From positions 1,709,501 to 1,773,500 of the forward strand of contig NZ_CP039904.1 of NCBI RefSeq assembly GCF_005221385.1: a stretch of 64,000 bases of DNA. Direction: 5' to 3'. The first letter of the stretch is position 1, and the number at the start of each line of letters is the position of its first letter. The position numbers and the translations under genes are program-made. Below the pieces are notes generated by a model. It was not told the origin of the DNA and ran no database searches. It worked only from the letters and a program-made list of their open reading frames with translations. This document shows, piece after piece, positions 1,649 to 10,825 of the stretch. Origin of the DNA: Agrobacterium tumefaciens (GTDB taxonomy: Bacteria > Pseudomonadota > Alphaproteobacteria > Rhizobiales > Rhizobiaceae).

Positions 1649-1660
1649 GATATTTTGCGA

Positions 1661-1690
1661 AAACGCCGCCCCTCGCAGGGCGGCGTTTTT
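1661..1690. terminator. Terminator after minE, shared with a convergent gene
   Basis: The ten-base arms AACGCCGCCC (1662-1671) and GGGCGGCGTT (1678-1687) pair perfectly around a 6-base loop. T runs follow on the plus strand and A runs precede, so the hairpin can terminate both minE and the minus-strand binding-protein gene whose stop codon overlaps its end at 1689. Confidence 0.9.
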
Positions 1691-2594
1691 ATTTCTCGGC
1701 CGTCGTATCGACCGGCTTTCGAAACGCCTCGGCCAGATCGCCGGGCAGCGGGCGCTTCAGGTTGATGCCGTTCGGCGGTATCGGCGCATTGAACCATTTA
1801 TCGTAGATTTTTTCGATTTCGCCGCTCTCATAGATTTGCCCCAACGCTTGGTTGACCGCGTCCCGAAAACCGGTATCGCCGCGGCGAAGCATCAGGCCAT
1901 AGGGCTGCGGCGGGGCGAGATATTCGTTGGAAATAGAATAGTCGTCCGGCTTGCCTGTTTCAGCGACGAAGGACCGCAGAAGAATATCGTCCATCACAAA
2001 GGCGGAGGCGCGGTTTTCCGTTACCATCTCGAAACCGCCCTCAGTGCTGTCATTCTGCAGAACGGCGACGTTCAGCCCCAGCTTGCGGTTGAGCACATTC
2101 AACTGGCTGATATTGATGGTTCCGGTCGTTACCACCACGGTGCGGCCAGCAAGATCGGCAACCGTGTTCAAGCGGCTGGATTTCAGCGCCACATAACGCG
2201 TGCCGGTGATGAAATGGCTGTAGGAAAACCACACCGCCTTGCGTCTTTCTTCCGTATTGGTACTCGCCACGCATTCCATGTCGATCGTGCCGTCATTGAG
2301 AAGCGTAATGCGGTTGCTGGGGGTGCGTTTGACGAAGTCGATCTTCAGTTCCGGCAAGCGCAGTTTCTTCTTGATGGAATCCGCCACCCTCAGGCAAAGC
2401 TCGATGCTATAGCCGATGGGTTCTGCGCCGGTGCCGAGATAGGAAAAGGGAATATTGTGATCGGCATAACCCAGCCGGATGGTGCCGGTTCTGACAATGG
2501 TTTCGAGCGTCGGCGGCTGGCTGTCTTCACTTGCCGCGTGGGTGGATAAAAGACTTAAAATTCCGAATGCAAGCCCCAATGTCGATCTCTGCAT
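1689..2594 (-). CDS. Family 3 periplasmic solute-binding protein (Glu/Asp-like), orphan copy 1
   Basis: This is a periplasmic binding protein of the polar amino acid family (SBP_bac_3). The predicted product is 301 residues, starting MQRSTLGLAFG, with a signal peptide to about residue 22 and a GGAG ribosome site 8 bases before the ATG; an in-frame start 10 codons upstream would disrupt the signal. Motifs such as IRLGYADHNIPFSY, DMECVASTNTEERR and SAFVMDDILL are those of the GltI glutamate/aspartate group. It is the last gene of a minus-strand run with a paralogue (69 bases upstream) and a GGDEF-EAL protein. No permease or ATPase is nearby. It could feed a distant transporter or act as a ligand sensor for the neighbouring membrane enzyme. 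Confidence 0.85.
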   Translation of the reverse strand: MQRSTLGLAFGILSLLSTHAASEDSQPPTLETIVRTGTIRLGYADHNIPFSYLGTGAEPIGYSIELCLRVADSIKKKLRLPELKIDFVKRTPSNRITLLNDGTIDMECVASTNTEERRKAVWFSYSHFITGTRYVALKSSRLNTVADLAGRTVVVTTGTINISQLNVLNRKLGLNVAVLQNDSTEGGFEMVTENRASAFVMDDILLRSFVAETGKPDDYSISNEYLAPPQPYGLMLRRGDTGFRDAVNQALGQIYESGEIEKIYDKWFNAPIPPNGINLKRPLPGDLAEAFRKPVDTTAEK

Positions 2595-2662
2595 CGCGCA
2601 TCTCCAGCTAAAATGATCTGCCAAAACATGTCTTCATAAAATGCAGGTGGGAGGGAGCGCCC

Positions 2663-3556
2663 TCAGTCACGATATTCAATCGGATGTTCGTAGGCCTGTT
2701 TCAAAGTAGCCGCCATCGGCAGATTCAGGTTCATACTGTTGGGCGGAATGGGCTTGGTGAACCATTTTTCATAGAGGTCGTGAATGGCGGGACCGGCGAA
2801 AATCTGCTTGAGGCTCTCGTTGACGGCGGCCTTGAAGGCCGGATCGTCGCGCCGGAAAACCAGCCCATAGGGTTCTGGTGCGCTCAGCGTTTCCTCTGAT
2901 AATGCATAGAGGTTCGGGTTTTCTGACGTCGCAGCCAGGGCTGCAAGCAGGATGCCATCCATGACGAAAGCGGAGGCCTTGCCGGCAACGACGAGTTCGA
3001 AGGCCTCCTCGTTGGTTTTCGTCGGCATGACCGAGATATTGAGGTTCTTTTCCCGGTTTATGGCATTCAGCTGTTCGATATTGACGGTGCCGGAAGCGGA
3101 GGTGACGGAACGGCCAGCCAGATCGGCAAGGCTTTTCAGATTGTCCTGCCTGCGCGATAGAAACTGCGTTGCGGTCATGAAATTCGGATAGGAGAAATCG
3201 ACGATTTTCCGGCGCTCACTGTTATTGGTCGTGGCGGCGCATTCGATGTCGATCTGGCCGCTGCGGACGAGAATGAAGCGGGTGGCGGGCGTGGCTTTGA
3301 CATATTCGAGGTCAAGCCTGTCGAGCTTCAGCTTCTTTCGGATATCCTCACTGATCGTCCGACAGAGATCGGTCGAAAAACCCGTCACTTCCCCATTCGG
3401 CAGCTGGTAGGAAAAAGGCGGCTCGGCTTCGCGATAACCGATGCGGATTTTTGCGGTCCTGGCAATCTGCTGCAGCGTGTCGCCTTCGCTGGCGGCCTGC
3501 AGCGGGGTGATGGGGGCAAAGCATGTGACGAAAAGGCAAAATACCGCAAGACGCAT
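2663..3556 (-). CDS. Family 3 periplasmic solute-binding protein (Glu/Asp-like), orphan copy 2
   Basis: This 297-residue paralogue of the downstream gene is collinear over its whole length: shared TxxIRxGY at the mature N-terminus, DIECAATTNNSERRK, the DLAGRS hinge, SAFVMDGILLAA and KWFTKPIPPN near the end. The signal peptide covers about residues 1-22 (MRLAVFCLFVTCFAPITPLQA). An AAGGAA ribosome site precedes the ATG. The pair looks like a tandem duplication that has diverged. It starts 30 bases after the GGDEF-EAL stop, so co-transcription with that gene is likely. The ligand is inferred as an acidic amino acid or similar from the GltI-like motifs only. Confidence 0.85.
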   Translation of the reverse strand: MRLAVFCLFVTCFAPITPLQAASEGDTLQQIARTAKIRIGYREAEPPFSYQLPNGEVTGFSTDLCRTISEDIRKKLKLDRLDLEYVKATPATRFILVRSGQIDIECAATTNNSERRKIVDFSYPNFMTATQFLSRRQDNLKSLADLAGRSVTSASGTVNIEQLNAINREKNLNISVMPTKTNEEAFELVVAGKASAFVMDGILLAALAATSENPNLYALSEETLSAPEPYGLVFRRDDPAFKAAVNESLKQIFAGPAIHDLYEKWFTKPIPPNSMNLNLPMAATLKQAYEHPIEYRD

Positions 3557-3586
3557 GTTATTTCCTTTTGGCCGGCGGCCGGTTTC

Positions 3587-5929
3587 TTAAATCGCTTTTT
3601 GTGGCGGGTTATAGGTTTCCTGTATCGGACGCCCGGTGTCGCGCAGCGACTGACCGTCCCCGCCACCAAACCCGTCTTTCCCGGCCGGCGTGATGATGGC
3701 GCGATTTTTGAGGATGTGCGCAAGTGGCGCCGGTTCGGCGAAATAATAACCCTGAGCCTCGTCGCACCCGCAAAGCTTGAGTGCGGCGACCTGTTCACTG
3801 TTTTCCACGCCCTCGGCGGTCACCTTCAGGCCGATCTGATCAGCCATGTCGATGATGGTGTTGACGATCGCCGAACACATGGGATTGGTGGGCAGGCCGG
3901 AGACGAATTCGCGGTCGATCTTTATCTTGTCGAAGGCCACATGGGTCAGCGTGCTCAAACCGGCGTAACCGGTGCCGAAATCGTCAAGGGCGAGACGAAC
4001 ACCTCTTTCTTTCAGCAGCTTCAAGGCTCTGGCGCTGCTGTCCCGCTCCAGCATCGCCGTTTCCGTCACTTCCAGCTCCAGCCGTTCCGCCGGAAAACCG
4101 GATGTTTCAAGGGCGCGATCGACAACGGGGACGATGTCGTCATTGCCGAGCTGGACGGCAGAAAGATTGACGGCGAGCCTGATGTCCTTCGGCCAGGCCA
4201 TGGCATCCATACAGGCCTGCGCCAGAACCCATTCGCCGAGCGGCTTGATGAAGTTGTTTTCTTCGGCAATGGCGATGAAGCGGTCCGGCGTTATGAGGCC
4301 AAGCTTGCTATGCCGCCAGCGGGCAAGCGCTTCATAGGCGACGATGCGGCCGCTCTGCAGGTTGACCACGGGCTGGTAATGCAGCTCGAATTCGTGGTTT
4401 TCGAGGGCGGATTTCATATCTATTTCCAGCGCGTGCTTGTGCTGCGCCGCCATGTCCATGCCGGGCTCGTAAAAAACGAAAAGGCCGCAGCCCATGGATT
4501 TGGCGCGGTAAAGTCCGAGATCGGCCTGCTGCAGAAGCTGGGTGGCTGAGGTTCCGTGATCCGGCGCGCAGGCGATGCCGATGCTGGTATCGACGCTGAT
4601 GTCGCTGCCTTCAAGATTGAAGCTGCGTGAGACCGCGTGCACCACCCGCTTTGCCAACAGGGCCGCATCTGCCCGGTAGTCGTCGCTTCCCGCCTGAATG
4701 ATGGCGAATTCGTCGCCACCGAGCCGGCTCACCATGTCGTTTTCACCGAGCACGGAGGAAATTCGCGAAGCAACGGCCACCAGCAACGCATCGCCGGCGG
4801 CGTGGCCGAGCGTATCATTGACCGCCTTGAAGCGGTCGAGGTCGAGCAGCATGACGTTGAATGGCTGGCCGGATGCGGCGAGATGGTCGAGACGGTTTTC
4901 CAGCGTTTTCCTCAGCAATACGCGGTTGGGAAGACCGGTCAGCGCATCGTGATGCGCCATATGTTCCAGCTGTTCCGCCATATCCCGTATCTGCCTGAGG
5001 CGCCCGCGTTCCAGAACCGCTTCGCGCAAGGTTTCGATAGCCGTTGCCATGTCGCCGATCTCGTCTCTGCGTTCCTGAAACGGCGTGACAATATCGGTTT
5101 CCTCACGGGCGATCCGCAGTGTCGCCTGCACCAGAGCCGGAACGGGCTTCAGGAAATGCCGGGCGATCACCGTTACGAGAACGCCTGTGACCGTCAGCAC
5201 CACGATCAGCGCGGCGAGCGAATTGTAGATCAGCTTGCGCTGCGCGCCGTAAAGCGCATCCGAACCGCCGATACTGACGGCAACCGCACCAATCGGCTTT
5301 TTTGTCTCCGTGCTGATGATCGGCAGCAGGCCGATATAATGACTGGACTCACCAATGGTCGCAAAGCCGGTGGCAAAACGTGCCGCCACACCATCCTTGG
5401 CGAAAATGGGATCCGTCGCGAGCGGCTTTTCAGCGTCATCTGTGGCGTTATCGAAGGCTGCGGCGATTTGTCTGAAGCCGGCATCGGTCTCGTCATAGCG
5501 GAAAAGCCAGACGGCATTTTTGGTCTGTGCGCCGATGAGGGCGAGAACATCGCTGGGATTGAAGCCGGTAACGAGAATGGATTCGTCGTCGCCGATCGGC
5601 TTGTCGGTCAATATGCCGTTGACCTGGCCGCCGTCGTCGGCGGTAACGCTGACATAGGTATAGATGCTGCGCAGCGTCGCGCTGGCGATCTGCGAATTGA
5701 CGCGGGCCTGATTGAGCCATTGCTCGCTGGCGGCGGCAACGAACATGTACCAGCCGACAAGCGCACCGATGCTGTAGGCGAAGATCACACCGCCCAGAAA
5801 TATCAGGGTTATCTTGCTGGCAAGCGAACGGCGGCGCGAAAACCGGCCATTTTCCGGCTGCGTCGTTAAGTCAAGCGTGTGGCCGGGTTCAGTCTGTCTA
5901 TCTATCCCCCGATAGGCAGTCTCTTCCAT
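3587..5929 (-). CDS. Membrane GGDEF-EAL protein (cyclic di-GMP cyclase/phosphodiesterase)
   Basis: This 780-residue inner-membrane signalling protein controls cyclic di-GMP. The order is: cytoplasmic N-terminus, TM1 about 38-66, periplasmic sensor about 67-233, TM2 about 234-259, HAMP about 260-312, GGDEF domain about 325-485 with an intact RLGGDEF at 402-408, and EAL domain about 505-745. The EAL domain retains YEALARW (532-538), ELEVTE, DDFGTGY, KIDREFV and EGVE, so phosphodiesterase activity is plausible. The inhibitory I-site RxxD is absent: GEND stands at that position. It is followed by two orphan periplasmic binding proteins. That is the arrangement expected if a liganded binding protein docks on the periplasmic domain, as NspS does on MbaA in Vibrio cholerae (comparison is inference). 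Confidence 0.93.
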   Translation of the reverse strand: MEETAYRGIDRQTEPGHTLDLTTQPENGRFSRRRSLASKITLIFLGGVIFAYSIGALVGWYMFVAAASEQWLNQARVNSQIASATLRSIYTYVSVTADDGGQVNGILTDKPIGDDESILVTGFNPSDVLALIGAQTKNAVWLFRYDETDAGFRQIAAAFDNATDDAEKPLATDPIFAKDGVAARFATGFATIGESSHYIGLLPIISTETKKPIGAVAVSIGGSDALYGAQRKLIYNSLAALIVVLTVTGVLVTVIARHFLKPVPALVQATLRIAREETDIVTPFQERRDEIGDMATAIETLREAVLERGRLRQIRDMAEQLEHMAHHDALTGLPNRVLLRKTLENRLDHLAASGQPFNVMLLDLDRFKAVNDTLGHAAGDALLVAVASRISSVLGENDMVSRLGGDEFAIIQAGSDDYRADAALLAKRVVHAVSRSFNLEGSDISVDTSIGIACAPDHGTSATQLLQQADLGLYRAKSMGCGLFVFYEPGMDMAAQHKHALEIDMKSALENHEFELHYQPVVNLQSGRIVAYEALARWRHSKLGLITPDRFIAIAEENNFIKPLGEWVLAQACMDAMAWPKDIRLAVNLSAVQLGNDDIVPVVDRALETSGFPAERLELEVTETAMLERDSSARALKLLKERGVRLALDDFGTGYAGLSTLTHVAFDKIKIDREFVSGLPTNPMCSAIVNTIIDMADQIGLKVTAEGVENSEQVAALKLCGCDEAQGYYFAEPAPLAHILKNRAIITPAGKDGFGGGDGQSLRDTGRPIQETYNPPQKAI

Positions 5930-8471: not shown

Positions 8472-9572
8472 TTATTTGCCGAGCTGGCCGTCGACCAGCG
8501 ATGTTTCCAGCGGAGCAGGGCGCTCCGCCTTGGTGGTGATGGAAACGGCGGTGCCGCTGTCCGATGCCGTCTGGAAGGCTTCCATCACCTCCAGCACATG
8601 CAGGGCGAGATCGCCATTGGCGCGGTGCGGGCGGTTTTCGCGGATCGCATACGCCATATCAGCGACGCCGATGGAGCGGTAGTTACCGTCGGCATAAGGC
8701 GACGACAGTGCCTGCGGCTCGAACTGGCCGCCCTTTTTCAGCAATTGCACCTCGCCGCCGAAATGGTTGGGATCGGGCACGAGCAGCGTGCCTTCCGTGC
8801 CGTAGAGTTCCAGCGGCACATGTTTGTGGCCTGCCACATCGAAGCTCATACCCACCTGCACCACGGCACCATTCTGGAAGGCCAGCACGCCGGAAACATG
8901 GGTGGCGACATGGACGGGGATTTTCTCGCCGTTCTTCGGCTCGCTGGTGATGAGGCGCTGATTGCGCGGCGCGATGGCAAAACCAGCCACCTTGGCGACC
9001 GGACCGAACAGGTTGACGAGATCGGTAATGTAATAGGGTCCCATATCCAGCATCGGGCCGCCGCCAACCTCGTAATAAAAGGCCGGGTTGGGGTGCCAAC
9101 GCTCATGGCCGGGGCACATGAAGGTGGCCGTTCCGCCGACTGGCTGGCCCAGCACGCCCTCATCGATCAGCCGGCGTGCGGTCTGGTGGCCGCCGCCGAG
9201 GAAGGTGTCGGGGGCCGAGCCGATGCGCAGGCCCTTGGCTTTTGCCGCATCCGCGAGGCGTTTGCCTTCGGTGAAATTGATGCCGAGCGGCTTTTCGGAA
9301 TAGGCGTGTTTGCCGGCGTGCAGTGCGCGCAGGCCCACCTCCACATGCGCCTTGGGGATCGTCAGGTTGACGATGATCTCCACGGAGGGATCGGCCAGCA
9401 ATGCGTCGATGCTTTTTGCCTGAAGGCCGAATTCATCGGCCCGCGCCTTTGCAGCCTCCTCGTTCATATCCGCCAGTCCGCGAATGTCGAGAATGGGAAA
9501 CGACGCCATGGCCTTGAGATAGGCGCTGGAGATGTTGCCGCAGCCGATGATGCCGATACCGACCTTGTTCAT
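8472..9572 (-). CDS. Gfo/Idh/MocA-family NAD(P)-dependent sugar oxidoreductase (ThuB-like)
   Basis: The 366 residues have an N-terminal Rossmann fold with GIIGCGNISSAY (about 6-17) and the family lysine in SEKPLG. The C-terminal alpha/beta substrate domain has DMGPYYITD. Members oxidise a sugar ring hydroxyl, often at C3, with NAD(P). A GGGAGGAAA ribosome site precedes the ATG. The gene lies between the ROK repressor (53 bases upstream) and the ThuA-like gene, the same pairing as thuA-thuB. A second, different member of the family ends the divergent arm, so the regulon has two dehydrogenases, possibly acting on different steps or epimers. Confidence 0.87.
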   Translation of the reverse strand: MNKVGIGIIGCGNISSAYLKAMASFPILDIRGLADMNEEAAKARADEFGLQAKSIDALLADPSVEIIVNLTIPKAHVEVGLRALHAGKHAYSEKPLGINFTEGKRLADAAKAKGLRIGSAPDTFLGGGHQTARRLIDEGVLGQPVGGTATFMCPGHERWHPNPAFYYEVGGGPMLDMGPYYITDLVNLFGPVAKVAGFAIAPRNQRLITSEPKNGEKIPVHVATHVSGVLAFQNGAVVQVGMSFDVAGHKHVPLELYGTEGTLLVPDPNHFGGEVQLLKKGGQFEPQALSSPYADGNYRSIGVADMAYAIRENRPHRANGDLALHVLEVMEAFQTASDSGTAVSITTKAERPAPLETSLVDGQLGK

Positions 9573-9625
9573 GTGATTTCCTCCCGTAAATCAGAAATGC
9601 CGAAGCCCGCTCTCAACCCTGCCGG

Positions 9626-10825
9626 CTAGAGCGCCGGCCCTGTTGTGTTCCATGGCGATTCGTAAAGCTCGTAAAGCGCGACGGCTGCAGCCCCTTGCGC
9701 CCATAATTCATCGCTCGCAACGTCGAAAACCAGTTCCGCGACGCCGGCCAGCGAAGGCGGCACGGCGGCGTTGTAACTGTCACGGATGCTGGCAATGAAG
9801 GGTTCGCCAAGTTCAAGGCTGGAGCCGGTGATGATGACGCGTGGCGGTGCAAACAGTGTAACGATATTGGCAAGTGTCAGGCCCAGTGCCGCGCCGGCGC
9901 GCAGGGCTGCCGCAATGAGATCGTGATCTTCGGCCGCAATCAGCGCATGGGCATGCTGCATGCCGCGACCAAGCCGGATGGCCTCGGCAAATCGCCCGTC
10001 CACCGGGCGCGAGCCTAAAATAGCGTTTTCACCCGCCTGGCTCGCCAGCCGGACTGTGCCTTCATTGGCAAGGCCGATGACGAGGTCGCCGAGATTGTGG
10101 CTGAGGCCGCCGGCACCACGGAACAGCTGATTCTGGTGCAAAACGCCAAGCCCGAGCGTCTGTTCGAGCGAAATCAATACCATGTCTTCCAGATCGCGCG
10201 CATGGCCGAACCAGTGGTGGGCAAGCGTGATGGCGTGGGCGTCGCTTTCGATGATGGTCGGCGAGCTCAGCCGCGACGTCATTTCCTCGGCGAAATTGAC
10301 ATTCACTTCACGCAAAATCGGGCTGCTGCGGATTTTCCCGGTGCGATGCTCGATGACGCCGGGAAGGCCGAGGCAGACCATGTCGACATCTTCCAGCGAC
10401 AGACCGGCATCGACCACGCAGCGCCGCACGCCGTCCTCCACCAGATCGGCAATGACGCCGATCGGCTGGCGATCGACACGGATCGGCAGGGCGAGGGTGG
10501 ATAGCACATTGCCGCAGAAATCGGTGACGACGAAGACCATGCGGCTTGCGGCGATCTTGGCACCCACGACGCGGGCAGCATCCGGGTTCAGTTCCAGCAT
10601 CACCCGCGGCCTGCCGCGCGCGCCTTCTGTGCGGATATCACCGAGATGACGGGTCAGAATCAGTCCGTCATCAAGCAGCGAGGCGGTAATCGCCGAAACG
10701 GTGGTGGTGGAAAGTTGCGTTCTTTCGCTGATTTCCACCCGCGAGATCGGCCCATGGCGGCGGATGCTGTCCAGCACGCTTAGCCTGTTGATCGCGCGCA
10801 TCAATTCTGGGTCTGCGGTCTTCAT
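9626..10825 (-). CDS. ROK-family transcriptional repressor of the adjoining sugar regulon
   Basis: The 399 residues comprise an N-terminal winged helix (HGPISRVEISERTQLSTTTVSAI, about 18-40) and a ROK sugar-binding domain. The ATG giving MKTADPELM is chosen; a longer frame reaches 10936 but runs back through this gene's own promoter. Kinase activity is not expected, as in ROK repressors (NagC, XylR). The region after SHNLGD, where most ROK proteins carry a zinc-binding Cys box, reads IGLANEGTVRLAS with no cysteine, which is unusual. It is divergent from the ABC transporter operon. Matching operator-like sequences lie over both promoters, so it probably represses itself and both arms until a sugar inducer binds. 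Confidence 0.88.
   Translation of the reverse strand: MKTADPELMRAINRLSVLDSIRRHGPISRVEISERTQLSTTTVSAITASLLDDGLILTRHLGDIRTEGARGRPRVMLELNPDAARVVGAKIAASRMVFVVTDFCGNVLSTLALPIRVDRQPIGVIADLVEDGVRRCVVDAGLSLEDVDMVCLGLPGVIEHRTGKIRSSPILREVNVNFAEEMTSRLSSPTIIESDAHAITLAHHWFGHARDLEDMVLISLEQTLGLGVLHQNQLFRGAGGLSHNLGDLVIGLANEGTVRLASQAGENAILGSRPVDGRFAEAIRLGRGMQHAHALIAAEDHDLIAAALRAGAALGLTLANIVTLFAPPRVIITGSSLELGEPFIASIRDSYNAAVPPSLAGVAELVFDVASDELWAQGAAAVALYELYESPWNTTGPAL

Follow-up and report, generated by a model that had tools for sequence, protein, structure and literature searches.

The stretch of DNA analysed here (the window) comprises 64,000 nucleotides of an Agrobacterium tumefaciens genome of 4 contigs and 5,515,917 bases (contig NZ_CP039904.1, positions 1,709,501 to 1,773,500). 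Three minus-strand genes at window positions 5929-1689 encode, in this order, a membrane GGDEF-EAL enzyme and two secreted solute-binding proteins (SBPs), referred to as SBP1 and SBP2. It is likely that the two SBPs are alternative, ligand-loaded co-receptors that dock on the single Cache domain of this enzyme of cyclic di-GMP (c-di-GMP) metabolism, and through this module Agrobacterium probably senses two nutrients outside the cell and changes between swimming and attachment. The data on which this proposal is based are the gene order and its conservation, the co-occurrence of sensor and SBPs, the split between the paralogues, their divergent pockets, the family of the sensor domain and the intact GGDEF motif.

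The enzyme, P0001 (3587..5929, minus strand, 780 residues), is built from a transmembrane (TM) segment, an sCache-like periplasmic domain, a second TM segment, HAMP, GGDEF and EAL. Hydrophobic stretches at about residues 36-67 and 232-261, as detected with 19-residue windows, flank a periplasmic part of about 165 residues, and the sCache_3_3-like sensor domain covers residues 67-233 (5231..5731, minus strand). Pfam places HAMP at residues 254-305 (5015..5170), the GGDEF domain at residues 325-480 (4490..4957) and the EAL domain at residues 506-733 (3731..4414), all on the minus strand. The motifs RLGGDEF, DLDRFK, EALARW, AVNLS, EVTET, DDFGTG, KIDREF, AEGVE and QGYY are present, which we take to be the catalytic motifs of GGDEF and EAL domains. 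With catalytic motifs in both domains and the GGDEF active-site motif intact, P0001 would fit the bifunctional GGDEF-EAL enzymes; at its I-site, GEND is found where RxxD is expected, and the arginine is absent. The initial annotation, made from the sequence alone, had described a TM protein with a periplasmic domain of this size, HAMP and intact GGDEF and EAL motifs, and the Pfam matches and the reading of the motifs agree with it. SBP1 (P0002; 2663..3556, minus strand, 297 residues) starts 30 bases past the enzyme stop, and SBP2 (P0003; 1689..2594, minus strand, 301 residues) starts 68 bases past SBP1, at the ATG at 2594, with a longer alternative at the TTG at 2624. Both belong to the Pfam family SBP_bac_3, share 45% identity and have a hydrophobic N-terminus, and a pattern search finds no lipobox in either. 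This is also in agreement with the earlier description of two paralogous secreted SBPs, 30 bases on, unaccompanied by transporter genes.

The conservation of the module was surveyed with the sensor region alone as the query, because GGDEF and EAL domains are too common, and matches were counted as strong from 190 bits upwards for the query in question. The survey covers sampled genomes, and outside the genus and the family f87 at most 6 or 7 candidates were scored per genome, so misses are possible. Strong matches are found in all 39 genomes of the genus and in 10 of 297 genomes of the family (11 loci; 6 of these genomes are inside the genus). Two further genomes are added at the order level (of 397; G685 and G503), two at the class level (of 385; G970 and G873, the same two being found among the 9 genomes of their own family) and three, with 5 loci, at the phylum level (of 378). 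Beyond the genus, the module also occurs in one other family of the Alphaproteobacteria and in two families that lie outside this class. When all strong matches are fetched (46 + 2 + 5 = 53 loci), each of the 53 adjoins GltI-type SBPs; in 51 of them a GGDEF or GGDEF-EAL protein is followed by two such SBPs on the same strand (three in G304), and the sensor proteins of the other two are chemoreceptors. Conservation of the three genes together had been named in the initial annotation as one of the points on which its reading should stand or fall, and the order enzyme-SBP-SBP is kept in 51/51 GGDEF-type loci, which also rules out a chance adjacency. The same order is seen in 15 named records (L039-L053), of which 13 are regarded as repeats of fetched loci and were not added, and two, from a Rhizobiales bacterium (L051) and R. 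herbae (L052), are further examples; the 61 module records referred to below are 46 fetched loci plus these 15. Inherited synteny alone is made unlikely by the flanking frames of 22 representative loci (up to 6 kb on either side), which form at least 9 groups with no links between them (E 1e-25, single linkage).

The co-occurrence of sensor and SBPs is also seen when the search is started from the SBP side. SBPs matching P0003 with at least 220 bits number 22 in the 297 family genomes, and they occur in exactly the 10 genomes with a sensor match of at least 200 bits and in none of the 287 others; the next-best match (197.5 bits) is the third SBP of G295, and the rest score at most 168.3 bits. 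No GltI-type SBP of the module kind is found at any of nine loci with weaker sensor matches (L108-L111 and L148-L152, the contig of L152 ending inside the gene); of the seven that were scanned with Pfam, all are chemoreceptors and six have sCache_3_3. At the loci of the GltI-like SBPs from Variovorax, Methylobacterium and others (L054-L097), no match to the sensor is found.

GltI works with the transporter components GltJKL, and the adjacent GltJKL genes that would mark a transport SBP of this type are lacking from the module. Within 4 kb of the SBP, a same-strand permease of the GltJ/K type is found in 0/61 module records, nor is one seen in the stretch covered for the five loci outside the class, as expected from the earlier claim of a gene order without transporter genes; at L100, ATPases are located nearby, upstream of the enzyme. 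One genome of the genus (G295) has, at L155 (7018-10238), a GltIJKL-type transporter too, whose SBP groups with the transport type and not with the module SBPs. A different arrangement is seen in G970 and G873 of the family f87, where the gene order is SBP, GltJ, GltK, GltL and chemoreceptor (L153, 3866-8900; L154, 4109-9081). The sensors of these chemoreceptors are 29-35% identical to the three module sensors with which they were compared, and these chemoreceptors are likely to be SBP-dependent. The output thus varies, being GGDEF-EAL, GGDEF only (L098, L099, L106) or a chemoreceptor (L153, L154), and the sensor and SBP remain constant. The strongest argument for a joint function of sensor and SBP is that they are still neighbours where the output and the transporter differ.

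The SBPs themselves can be placed, from their sequences, in the GltI family of transport SBPs. Their nearest solved relatives are the structures 2IA4 and 2VHA of the Glu/Asp-binding protein GltI/DEBP (E 9.5e-52 and 2.2e-55), and their nearest NCBIfam model is the Glu/Asp SBP model NF008063, for which the scores (187.7 and 203.3) are below the cut-off of 375 bits. SBP1 is found at 88-97% identity in 12 named Agrobacterium/Rhizobium records, followed by matches at 75%, 62% and 62%. A tree of 113 rows separates the 94 module SBPs, as one group (100/100), from the 19 GltI-like rows of the outgroup. SBP2 makes up one side of a branch with 100/100 support, or 99/99 once the loci outside the class are added. 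The SBP1 rows are paraphyletic, and an ancient split is therefore claimed only for the SBP2 branch, since SBP1 forms no clade of its own. The trees and alignments indicate that SBP2 split off once, and anciently, and that the two SBPs keep different pockets; redundant duplicates are made unlikely by this split and by the group-specific pocket residues. In G304, a member of the genus (L142, 4650-9874), three SBPs are encoded behind the enzyme, and the extra copy groups with SBP1.

The pockets were compared for 47 distinct SBP1 and 47 distinct SBP2 sequences, using GltI numbering. Thr92, Arg97 and Asp182, which presumably hold the amino-acid backbone, are retained in 47/47 of both groups. Arg24, Arg75 and His164 we take to be side-chain pocket residues of GltI for Glu/Asp. 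SBP1 has Arg24 (47/47), Glu27 (46/47), Pro72 (38/47), Arg75 (47/47) and Asn164 (42/47), with His164 in 3/47, and the protein of the window has R24, E27, P72, R75 and N164. SBP2 has Gly, Ala or Ser at position 24 (47/47, Arg24 in none), Arg70 (47/47), Pro72 (45/47), Arg75 (47/47) and Ser91 (47/47), with His164 in 4/47 and Asn, Thr or another residue at position 27, where the alignment is gappy; the protein of the window has A24, N27, R70, P72, R75 and T164. The part of the source available for GltI-based sensors assigns side-chain pocket roles for Glu/Asp also to positions 27 and 72 (Ser27 and Ser72; PMC10942590), and the full set of Arg24, Ser27, Ser72, Arg75 and His164 is found in neither SBP. 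In contrast to GltI/DEBP, Ser72 and His164 are mostly replaced in the module SBPs, and in SBP2 Arg24 is replaced too. Among 12 GltI-like outgroup proteins, eight equal GltI at 10/11 positions compared (24, 27, 72, 75, 90, 91, 92, 97, 164, 182), but more variation is seen in a wider outgroup (46 proteins; Ser72 in 22, Ala72 in 21; Arg75 in 24, Thr75 in 21), and for this reason the change of the pocket is by itself not unique to the module. Of the two amino-acid-like ligands proposed in the initial annotation, the notion of two ligands is favoured by the two separately maintained pockets, but glutamate and aspartate as stated are not, as SBP2 lacks Arg24 in all 47 sequences and side-chain positions are changed in both proteins; the assignment of Glu/Asp as ligands is thus only partly supported. 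In the excerpted description of those sensors, S72P moved the preference from glutamate to aspartate in a sensor that has S27A (PMC10942590). Plain aspartate was not adopted as the ligand on this ground: at position 27, SBP1 has Glu and SBP2 has Asn, Thr or another residue, unlike S27A, so that aspartate is only one candidate, and Pro72 also occurs in two GltI-like proteins with permeases, which counts against plain aspartate as well.

The best fold match of the sensor domain is the formate-bound sCache domain of a chemoreceptor (sCache_3_3, 8PY1), and the model of this domain, calculated from 16 mostly close sequences (pLDDT 63), appears to have the sCache_3_3 fold. Neither this sCache-like character nor the occurrence of the sensor in a chemoreceptor next to a GltI-type SBP had been recognised in the initial annotation. 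In this family the formate residues are R142 and T145 (PacF numbering), according to the excerpt consulted (PMC12501870), and neither is found in any of 20 module sensors. The sensors that are linked to SBPs have instead gained an insertion of about 8 residues, which is lacking from the plain sCache chemoreceptors aligned. The motif PIGDDESILVTG (residues 111-122; 5564..5599, minus strand) spans this insertion, is found with a permissive pattern in 61/61 module records and is a candidate SBP dock.

In the enzyme, GGDEF and D-L-D-x-F-K are present in 61/61 module records and EAL in 58/61, and GGDEF is intact in all module loci except one with a split gene. In that locus, which is outside the class (L161 of G1133, 8569-10013), the GGDEF region is split over two reading frames of 427 and 87 residues, and both SBPs stay open. 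EALxRW is found in 57 of the 58 EAL-bearing module records (ETLVRW in L147), DDFGTG also in 57 (DDLGTG in L146), and AEGVE, AEGIE or VEGIE in 56; outside the class, L163 and L164 carry ESLIRW and DDLGTG. The EAL domain is absent from G231 (L098 and L099) and G171, which belong to one genus and probably reflect one loss. The synthesis of c-di-GMP is the likelier conserved output, as GGDEF is retained in the two genomes (one genus) that have lost EAL. G231 carries the module twice, each time in the GGDEF-only form, and the I-site RxxD is kept as RPGD in one subgroup (L100 and related loci, 8 records). In L163 (10731-13379) and L164 (10049-12697), the two SBPs are followed by a frame of 232 residues and one of 646 residues that matches the EAL query, and these stretches are possibly a longer c-di-GMP cluster.

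In the proposed mechanism, SBP1 and SBP2 would be exported, soluble, GltI-related Venus-flytrap proteins without a transporter of their own alongside, and each would close on a different amino-acid-like ligand. The closed SBP would dock on the sCache-like periplasmic domain, perhaps via the PIGDD-type insertion, and the signal, transmitted via the second TM segment and HAMP, would shift the balance of diguanylate cyclase and phosphodiesterase in a direction that could be either. This would be the logic of NspS-MbaA with two SBPs sharing one dock, by competition, addition or antagonism. It is also possible, although somewhat doubtful, that a family of SBP-docking Cache domains arose from directly sensing sCache receptors and was plugged into varied outputs, and that the c-di-GMP enzyme, via an ancient SBP pair that competes for or shares the dock, responds to the ratio or the combination of two extracellular amino-acid-like ligands.

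The NspS-MbaA system of Vibrio cholerae and Sinorhizobium meliloti, as far as it is covered by the excerpts of PMC8967002 and PMC9993111, likewise has a separate periplasmic SBP gene beside a membrane GGDEF-EAL enzyme with a periplasmic domain, and the occupancy of the SBP decides between cyclase and phosphodiesterase: in the model described there, NspS loaded with norspermidine associates with the enzyme and promotes its cyclase activity, and the enzyme on its own acts as a phosphodiesterase (PMC8967002). NspS is a PotD homologue (PMC9993111), and in V. cholerae the gene of this single polyamine SBP comes first, whereas the module has two SBP_bac_3 proteins and the enzyme first, with no PotD-like polyamine SBP adjacent; the parallel drawn in the initial annotation therefore holds for an analogue, not for the same family. 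In the ScrA-ScrB-ScrC system of Vibrio parahaemolyticus, a dual-function c-di-GMP enzyme is switched by a periplasmic protein of the same operon (PMC10269520, in part), but there is one binding protein and the signal-producing ScrA, whereas the module consists of the enzyme and two SBPs, with no gene of another kind such as scrA. RmcA of Pseudomonas aeruginosa is, in the portion of PMC8846402 available, a c-di-GMP protein with an SBP_bac_3 domain and sensing of L-arginine; there the SBP domain is inside the enzyme, in the module two separate proteins are encoded. For A. tumefaciens, the number of GGDEF-EAL proteins is given as 13 in a review of 2014, whose excerpted text describes none with such binding proteins (PMC4018554). 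A two-SBP GGDEF module was not found in a search of the literature that covered the accessible text of open-licence papers.

Several observations weigh against the proposed mechanism. The SBPs linked to the chemoreceptors cluster with SBPs of the transport type (96/86 with L054) and not with the module SBPs, whereas the sensors of these loci are placed, with weak support (82/67), among those of the module; since the two trees disagree, sensor and SBP are not one inherited pair at these loci. In f241, the SBP1 pocket lacks Arg24, Arg75 and Asp182, so that 'amino acid' may not apply throughout, and the ligands have probably drifted. Many outgroup loci (L054-L097) are also without a permease, one of the GltJ/K type being located within 4 kb on the strand of the SBP at 11/43 and missing there at 32/43; an orphan SBP alone therefore means little, because permease-less GltI-like SBPs exist without the sensor as well, and it is the fixed pairing that is special. 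In L162 (8221-10512) and L165 (6837-9059), both outside the class, EALVRW is present and a motif of the DDFG or DDLG type was not found, and these EAL domains are possibly inactive as phosphodiesterase. The model of the sensor is weak at its pLDDT, the pattern of the insertion motif misses 4/5 sensors outside the class, though variants are visible there, and the fold is a ligand-binding one, with which direct sensing is possible.

Direct sensing would mean that the Cache domain binds a small ligand itself and that the SBPs are transport proteins sharing its promoter, with permeases elsewhere. The formate-bound domain as best fold match and the amino-acid-type permeases elsewhere in the genome (24 GltJ-like matches) are consistent with this, but the formate residues are missing from all 20 sensors, the best GltJ-like match is only 33% identical and is located near other SBP genes, the 61 module records lack an adjacent permease, and sensor and SBPs co-occur, so that we consider this explanation quite improbable. 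Much the same low probability is given to a variant of the main proposal, with the SBPs docking on the enzyme and also feeding a non-adjacent permease, such that signalling would report transport load. The f87 operons, which join one GltI-type SBP, GltJKL and a chemoreceptor with this sensor, speak for such a double duty; the GGDEF versions, however, lack the adjacent permease, and the module SBPs are a group of their own, separate from the transport type. Somewhat less improbable, but still unlikely, is a second variant of the main proposal, in which one SBP senses the ligand and the other occupies the dock as a negative partner or decoy, the pair setting a threshold for one ligand. Both paralogues are always retained together, and SBP2, lacking Arg24 throughout, may have a low affinity for acidic ligands, but its invariant Thr92, Arg97 and Asp182 argue that it still binds something.

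In the window, the unit is bordered by minE (convergent) and an amidase gene (divergent), as identified by Pfam, and only the three genes are in the operon. Between SBP2 and minE, a GC-rich inverted repeat with A/T-rich ends (1660..1689, strand not assigned), read from the sequence, may be a two-way terminator; it is not among the results of the terminator scan, and the promoter scan gives fewer sites than in shuffled controls. Atu3250-3253 and SMb21517-8 were considered as locus tags; Atu3252 is a GntR-type regulator in one paper, and that guess is therefore wrong.

As far as we are aware, c-di-GMP enzymes have few known extracellular ligands, and the control of c-di-GMP by SBPs is limited to a handful of cases. 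If the proposal is correct, Agrobacterium would have, across the genus and through two divergent SBPs on one enzyme, a defined route by which nutrients act on its switch from the motile to the attached state. The module would also lend itself naturally to testing how two binding proteins are read by a single Cache domain, and the chemoreceptor version, found in a different family, would allow the same dock to be tested independently.

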